A DNA stretch of 32,911 bases, taken from the NCBI GenBank assembly GCA_030633885.1, contig DAOWBV010000004.1:1-32911 (forward strand). The letters run 5' to 3'. A program made the translations under genes and the position numbers. Source of the stretch: Planctomycetota bacterium. Lineage in GTDB: Bacteria > Planctomycetota > MHYJ01 > JACQXL01 > CAKKQI01. Positions 10,192-30,366 of the stretch are shown piece after piece. A model generated the notes under the pieces. That model was not told where the DNA came from and made no database searches. It saw only the letters and a program-made list of their open reading frames with translations. How positions within the stretch are numbered: position 1 is the stretch's first letter; every line of letters begins with the position of its first letter.

Positions 10192-10258
10192 TTAACCTCT
10201 GCCCTGTGCGTAATGGTTTGTTTTAATTAGAACCAACAGATTAAAAAAGGGCGCTTCG

Positions 10259-10305
10259 TTCTGATAGTGAAAAGATGTCCCGATTAATCATCGGGAATAT
10301 CAGAA
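10259..10305. repeat. nested hairpin in intergenic region
   Basis: Outer stem TTCTGATA (10259-10266)/TATCAGAA (10298-10305), inner stem TCCCGAT (10278-10284)/ATCGGGA (10290-10296). Confidence 0.55.
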
Positions 10306-10398
10306 GCTGTCAGGCTGTGCCCAAATTAAAATATGGGTTCTACCCGGAATTTCCATACGGCAGATGCGGAGGTTTTTTTCTGCTTTTTTTAAGGTGGC

Positions 10399-29782: not shown

Positions 29783-29855
29783 TACCCCCGGCAGGACTCG
29801 AACCTGCAGCCACCGGATTAGAAATCAGGTGCTCTATCCATTGAGCTACGGGGGC
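29783..29855 (-). tRNA. tRNA-Arg (anticodon TCT)
   Basis: Reverse complement GCCCCCGTAGCTCAATGGATAGAGCACCTGATTTCTAATCCGGTGGCTGCAGGTTCGAGTCCTGCCGGGGGTA; T-C mismatch in the anticodon stem; CCA not encoded. Confidence 0.85.
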
Positions 29856-29917
29856 GTAGATAATAAGTCCTTTTCCCTAAAGCTTTTGTTTTATCCATTG
29901 TCAACCGGAGGCTGATC

Positions 29918-29938
29918 CCTGCCTGACCGGCAGGCAGG
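29918..29938. repeat. CCTGCCTG-aCCGG-CAGGCAGG hairpin
   Basis: Perfect 8-bp inverted repeat inside degenerate tRNA-spacer; related to the insert at 23875-23890. Confidence 0.6.
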
Positions 29939-30088
29939 CGCCTTCGGCGGAAGCTACGGGAGCCTGACTTTGATCGACTTACCCGTAGACCGCGACCCTG
30001 TGTGCGACTAAGGGCGCATAAATAAATCATCCCTTAGATAGGACTGCGTTAACAGGCCTATACTACGGGGGTTAATCAGGTGTAAAAA

Positions 30089-30162
30089 TACGCCCTGTAG
30101 GATTTGAACATACGGCCAGCTGATTAAGAATCAGCTGCTCTACCAGGCTGAGCTAAGGGCGC
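30089..30162 (-). tRNA. tRNA-Lys (anticodon CTT)
   Basis: Reverse complement GCGCCCTTAGCTCAGCCTGGTAGAGCAGCTGATTCTTAATCAGCTGGCCGTATGTTCAAATCCTACAGGGCGTA; mismatch in T-stem (GTATG/CCTAC); CCA not encoded. Confidence 0.8.
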
Positions 30163-30190
30163 ATAAATATTTAACTAAATACTCCCTTAG

Positions 30191-30212
30191 GATCCCGACA
30201 TCCGTCGGGATC
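30191..30212. repeat. GATCCCGAC-atcc-GTCGGGATC hairpin
   Basis: Perfect 9-bp stem; same core as the hairpin at 10278-10296. Confidence 0.6.
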
Positions 30213-30366
30213 TAAGAATCCCATCAGTTTATGCCTCGCTATCGCTCGCATAATCCTGTGGGCTTCTAAGACTAAGGGCGCATTAAAAGAGAAAGTTTAG
30301 CATACAAGTTGGATTTTTGCAATAAAAAAGTAGAGGGATGGGTACACCGTAAATGTCTAAAAAAAC

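Follow-up and report, generated by a model that had tools for sequence, protein, structure and literature searches.

Repeated tRNA-Lys 5′ ends in a Planctomycetota genome: probable footprints of a gene-less palindromic element

How the first nucleotides of a tRNA-Lys gene came to lie three times in close succession, with a whole tRNA behind only one of them, is the question raised by a locus in a 32,911-nt stretch of a Planctomycetota genome (this whole stretch is here called the window). The sequence CTAAGGGCGCAT occurs at 30008, 30153 and 30272, the copies at 30008 and 30153 lengthening to CTAAGGGCGCATAAATA, and perfect matches to CTAAGGGCGCATNAA in the 2,043,354-base genome number three, all within 276 bp, a clustering that led us to reject a chance repeat. 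A promoter repeat was likewise rejected, the minus strand having no sigma-70-like site in the region. The preliminary description was right that a complete tRNA-Lys(CTT) follows the middle copy only (ARAGORN, 30088–30163; Rfam, 30089–30162; both minus strand), and the two CTAAGGG/CCCTTAG palindromes that it had seen using the tRNA start as one arm are present, with partners (minus-strand CTAAGGG) at 30184–30190 and 30031–30037. We consider it likely, on the evidence given below, that a non-autonomous palindromic mobile element, inserting after tRNA nucleotide ~10–15 and supplying a new 5′ end, has left the three starts as its footprints.

Architecture of the tRNA-Lys and tRNA-Arg leaders

The locus is better read on the minus strand, as a stump, palindromes, an antisense arm and then the tRNA. 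In this orientation tRNA-Lys(CTT) comes first, then tRNA-Arg(TCT) and tRNA-Leu(TAG), and downstream of them lies a short reading frame, taken by eye to encode ribosomal protein L34. The Lys leader opens with the stump GCGCCCTTAG (30281–30272), an exact copy of tRNA-Lys nt 1–10, followed by a palindromic filling (30191–30253) in which TTATGCGAGCGATAGCGAGGCATAA (30229–30253) and GATCCCGACGGATGTCGGGATC (30191–30212) are each predicted to fold as RNA hairpins. The antisense arm CTAAGGG (30190–30184), complementary to tRNA-Lys nt 4–10, and an AT-rich loop then lead into the intact tRNA-Lys (anticodon CTT), which occupies 30089–30162 and starts at 30162. These two Lys starts lie 119 nt apart, with no reading frame of at least 80 aa between them.

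The Lys–Arg spacer is built of similar parts. An Arg-type 5′-end copy, ACCCCCGTAG (30072–30063), forms the outermost stump of the tRNA-Arg leader, 217 nt upstream, and is followed by CTAAGGG...GCGCCCTTAG (30037–30008), the terminal hairpin CTAAGGG-ATGATTTATTTATGCG-CCCTTAG of a second element. The end of this hairpin (30008–30017) is a Lys-type 5′ end lying within the tRNA-Arg leader with no tRNA behind it. Next come the antisense arm CTACGGG (29988–29982), complementary to the CCCGTAG of tRNA-Arg, a second Arg-type copy, GCTCCCGTAG (29963–29954; 108 nt upstream), further palindromes, and the intact tRNA-Arg with anticodon TCT (29783–29855, minus strand; ARAGORN, Rfam). When the spacer is compared with its own genome, most matches fall on the palindrome CCTGCCTGCCGGTCAGGCAGG (29918–29938, minus strand), which is dispersed in the genome; tRNA spacers are filled with many such palindromes. 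Elsewhere in the window a 6S RNA was detected at 10193–10376 on the plus strand (RF00013, 57 bits).

A covariance model built from the elements of relatives only, with no window sequence (model R1), matched the window at 30148–30209 (14.2 bits, E 0.0011 over 1.1 kb) and at 29841–29893 (15.9 bits, E 0.0004 over 1.1 kb; loop motif AAAAGGACTTATTATCTAC), both on the minus strand and each match terminating in a tRNA start, that of tRNA-Lys and tRNA-Arg respectively; the hairpin at 30008–30037 gave a weak partial match (3.7 bits). Because the TAGCTCAA of the tRNA start is part of the model, any tRNA gains some credit, and control loci were therefore used. Across 76 kb around the tRNAs of this genome the best four matches were the leaders of Lys, Arg-TCT, Met (C200) and Arg-ACG, all ending at tRNA starts, and 74 kb of control loci yielded no comparable match at a tRNA start among the matches listed. 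Genome-wide, R1 found no match at E≤0.001, and a BLAST search with the units of this genome for non-tRNA copies returned only the known tRNA leaders and weak matches. The window units are distant members (14–16 bits) with palindromic cores unlike those of the element in the nearest relative; they and that element probably form one family, the low R1 scores keeping membership at the level of the probable.

A dispersed element in the nearest relative

The nearest relative (G001, of the same family) carries a dispersed element of ~61 nt, with 41 matches to model R1 at E≤0.001. Its unit consists of a small hairpin (CCCGAAAGGTCGGG), ATTTCGCT, an antisense arm, a loop (A[TG]GACTCACTATTTAT) and a sense arm ending in ...TAGCTCAA, the sense arm being a replica of the first ~15 nt of a tRNA; the inserts have CCCGAAAGGTCGGGATTTC...ATGACTCACTATTTAT in common. 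Units located at tRNAs match their own tRNA at 15 of 15 positions in six cases in G001 and in one in a second relative (G003). Copies away from tRNA genes in G001 span CCCGAAAGG to TAGCTCAA with the tRNA start still attached, and the tRNA start is therefore a terminus of the element itself. Two non-tRNA loci have GCCCCCGTAGCTCAA, identical to tRNA-Arg at 15 of 15 positions, another has CCCCCGTAGCTCAA (14/14), and several other copies resemble tRNA-Thr.

Some of these copies lie in frame within protein-coding genes of G001, namely those for SerRS, PstB, a 4Fe-4S protein and a DUF11 protein. The SerRS gene holds two tandem units in frame (44 residues between aligned blocks vs 1 in PDB 2dq3), PstB carries one in-frame unit (~21 extra residues), and the insert in the 4Fe-4S protein gene and the stump in the tRNA-Thr leader contain the same 35-nt palindrome and tRNA-Thr start.

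The two arms of the unit change together. In the unit alignment 30 double-changed cells were counted against 12.6 after shuffling, with a covariation score of 0.247 vs 0.087 (0 of 500 shuffles), sliding the arms abolished the sense/antisense pairing, and own-arm pairing reached 6.6 vs 4.8 for swapped arms. Across whole leader inserts the antisense excess is modest (7.0 vs 5.9 in G000, 6.4 vs 5.9 in G001 and none in G003), and the claim of covariation therefore rests on the unit alignment. Several tRNA insertions, such as that at tRNA-Gly-CCC of G001, have no antisense arm, and there is therefore more than one kind of insert.

These features bear on the idea that the repeated starts are a target-site duplication of ~10–15 bp, made by a staggered cut over tRNA nt 1 to ~14, with only the hairpin and loop belonging to the element. 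The direct repeat at tRNA sites does begin at or near the mature 5′ end and end at nt 10–15, as such a cut would have it; yet at non-tRNA sites the tRNA start is still present on the right, the left side has no copy to match it, and an antisense arm that matches each tRNA is left unexplained, making this account unlikely. For the mobile-element reading itself it is a point against that signs of target-site duplication at non-tRNA sites are weak (mean longest flank word 1.75 vs 0.56 swapped; only 12 copies, 2–3 of these at tRNAs). MITEs of DDE transposons have target-site duplications of fixed length; here a few copies have matching flanks (e.g. 7 nt, TATAATT, at L257) and most have none.

Copies of 5′ ends and other inserts at tRNA genes

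We surveyed exact 9-nt copies of tRNA 5′ ends within 400 nt upstream, with real tRNAs masked. Such a copy precedes 29 of the 148 tRNAs in this genome and in three relatives within its order (9/38 here, 11/32 in G001, 7/46 in G003 and 2/32 in G006) and none of 31 in more distant genomes; swapped tRNA starts gave 0.4–1.4 per genome and the downstream side 0–1. Among the 38 tRNAs of this genome, 5′ copies also occur at both Met loci (C149, C200), Arg-ACG, Arg-CCG, Gly-GCC, Leu-CAA and Thr-CGT, and tRNA-Phe has two tandem units. The arrangement is thus found at many tRNAs of the genome and its relatives, where absence of the segment near other tRNAs would have spoken against the preliminary description. 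A strict form of the unit of this genome (CCGTAGTTTN{12,40}GGTCTACGG), sought in 294 genomes across the phylum, matched only the two Arg leaders of this genome, and a search throughout GTDB for an antisense arm ahead of tRNA-Lys gave 14 pattern matches, one of them the relative. The tRNA-Pro loci of this genome (L076, L067 and L075) bear tandem units in whose inverted repeats, TTTTATCGGGG / CCCCGATAAAA, the start of tRNA-Pro serves as one arm. On contig C10 of G003 (L037, 500–800), a complete tRNA-Leu(TAG) lies within a broken tRNA-Leu (TGCGTGGG...GGCAGAC / CCTTTAGGC...CCCACGCA), with inverted CATCCCGATAAAAATGGGCG-like repeats on either side.

The preliminary description had left two options, mobile palindromes targeting the tRNA 5′ end or plain repeated duplication and truncation. 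The former is well supported. The latter is not the best account, because a dispersed element, found also at non-tRNA sites, has the tRNA 5′ end as its terminus, and because the antisense arm is part of that element and covaries with it. Simple duplication or truncation of a local tRNA array, or slippage between repeats, with no mobile element involved, would suit the interleaving of Lys- and Arg-type fragments in one operon and the tandem units at tRNA-Phe, but we regard it as highly improbable given that the insert sequence is common to unrelated tRNAs and protein genes, that dispersed copies lie in frame, and that 5′-end copies upstream far outnumber those downstream.

The acceptor stem is always sound only in the downstream copy, and many stumps have decayed; the notion that functional 5′ ends pair worse than stumps found no general support. 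Decay bears on a further possibility, namely that stump and antisense arm form a selected RNA switch controlling tRNA folding or processing. In the predicted fold of the leader alone the partner of the CTAAGGG arm is the stump, whereas the fold of the whole precursor pairs it with the genuine 5′ end of the tRNA, and the precursor appears near-bistable (leader and tRNA apart −79.3 vs whole −80.4 kcal/mol; z −5.1 vs shuffles). Predicted acceptor pairing falls from 0.17 to 0.07 with the antisense arm scrambled and rises to 0.49 with the stump scrambled, in folds computed without cotranscriptional folding, tertiary contacts or modifications. In such models the stump would be a decoy competing for the 3′ strand of the acceptor, and the antisense arm would relieve this slightly, which is weak evidence that the arm is of use at tRNA sites. 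The arrangement is, however, absent from most tRNAs and variably present among orthologous ones, its stumps decay, and the element unit also sits in protein genes, so that a selected leader function seems improbable.

A second class of insert is found at other tRNAs. Small GIY-YIG reading frames occur in the four genomes of this order, and for 17 of those examined a tRNA of the same strand is no more than ~190 nt away; the GIY-YIG domain was confirmed for four. Frames upstream of the tRNA tend to leave a 5′ fragment (Val 1–24, Leu 1–24, Asn 1–20, and Pro-CGG 1–30 in this genome) and downstream frames a 3′ fragment (Asp 58–78, His 60–75, and Leu-TAA 66–84 in this genome), and three of the insertions break in the T-loop. 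In this genome the frames at L283:220–660 (C211; Pro-CGG) and L295:1046–1750 (C149; Leu-TAA) have a tRNA fragment on one side and an intact tRNA on the other, the T-loop being broken at GTTC/GAATCC. The GIY-YIG genes follow the same rule as the hairpins, leaving a fragment and one whole gene, at other positions in the tRNA. The tRNA stumps might then be remnants of GIY-YIG homing, with the palindromes as later, unrelated insertions into dead spacer, and the same-strand frames close to tRNAs, often bordered on their other side by a tRNA fragment, fit this. We nonetheless give it little credence: the ends of the hairpin unit are conserved, its junction with tRNA nt 1 is fixed in many tRNAs, it is dispersed alone, and the GIY-YIG insertions break elsewhere in the tRNA (T-loop or anticodon arm).

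Other insertions were also seen. On contig C174 of a further genome (G007; L040:2124–2417), the orthologue of the window's tRNA-Arg(TCT) is interrupted by a group I intron (RF00028, 64 bits); the window itself has no match to the Rfam intron model. Y1_Tnp genes number five in this genome (RAYT-like; L261, L265, L266 and L267), occur also in the relatives, and are candidates for mobilizing hairpin repeats.

Proposed mechanism and relation to known systems

In the mobile-element reading that we prefer, a unit would enter a tRNA gene after nt ~10–15, leaving the original 5′ end upstream as a leader stump, and its 3′ terminus would join the remaining gene as a new 5′ end, so that a whole tRNA is kept. 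At tRNA-Lys the stump would be 30272–30281 and the functional start 30162, and the copy at 30008–30017 would be the end of a second unit lying in the tRNA-Arg leader. The upstream stump would then drift while the downstream copy retains a sound acceptor stem. Both the direction of movement and insertion by transposition are conjectural on our part, as is the view that the ends were derived from, or converted to match, the tRNA that they rebuild. Element ends might come to match by descent within one tRNA family or by conversion between stump and element end, and the antisense arm could arise by palindrome-correcting template switching; Y1/RAYT-like transposases and GIY-YIG nucleases are candidate enzymes only. 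We see about an even chance that the fuller statement holds, namely that gene-less mobile hairpins whose 3′ terminus is a tRNA 5′ replica enter the D-arm, rebuild the cut tRNA, have replica and antisense arm re-matched to each tRNA, and spread to protein genes.

Several known systems resemble parts of this arrangement. REPs are led by GTAG, and the REP/BIME repeats of RAYT systems are short hairpins like those found here; the Arg units have a GTAG...hairpin...CTAC layout that resembles theirs, but the arms of the unit change with the tRNA (TTAG for Lys, ATAG for Thr, GTAG for Arg) instead of keeping a GTAG foot. Rickettsia palindromic elements (RPE) occur in frame in conserved protein genes and also in RNA genes (tmRNA, RNase P RNA; PMC2229807). 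Like these and the Wolbachia palindromic repeats, the unit is small, palindromic, dispersed, present in both protein and RNA genes and has no known mobilizing enzyme. It shares RPE-like dispersal in G001 (the 41 R1 matches), this genome having only distant tRNA-leader copies, and RPE-like in-frame insertion in the SerRS, PstB, 4Fe-4S and DUF11 proteins. RPE are, however, 105–146 bp long with long terminal inverted repeats, whereas the present unit of ~61 nt has two hairpins and not one long stem, and PMC2229807 describes none that has a tRNA 5′ end as its terminus or that rebuilds a tRNA.

Homing endonuclease genes likewise combine a selfish insert with a partial copy of the host gene such that a whole gene remains, as with the partial C-terminal duplications beside GIY-YIG/LAGLIDADG ORFs in fungal mitochondrial atp6 and cob (PMC6279837). 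The GIY-YIG genes at tRNAs described above look similar, but no reading frame is present in the window unit, whose share of the tRNA is only 10–15 nt. Integrases and genomic islands (attB/attP) also restore the tRNA that they enter and leave a tRNA fragment at the far end, one such tRNA-inserted element giving a 22-nt tRNA duplication in Haloquadratum (PMC3119063). Integrase elements typically duplicate the tRNA 3′ end and encode an integrase; here it is the 5′ end, the unit is ~61 nt and gene-less, and the 119-nt spacing of the Lys starts, lacking a reading frame, does not match integrase-type att sites. Searches of the open literature turned up no palindrome that lacks genes and terminates in a replica of a tRNA 5′ end, which is not proof of absence.

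Since tRNA genes are short and essential, an inserting element must spare or restore their function. If the reading given here is true, a gene-less hairpin restores the tRNA 5′ end at many different tRNAs of a single genome, with arms that track each tRNA, and how small elements acquire target sequence and how selfish palindromes pass between RNA and protein genes become testable. For annotation there is a warning, in that truncated tRNA starts and odd inserts of ~21 residues in conserved proteins of this lineage can have one source.
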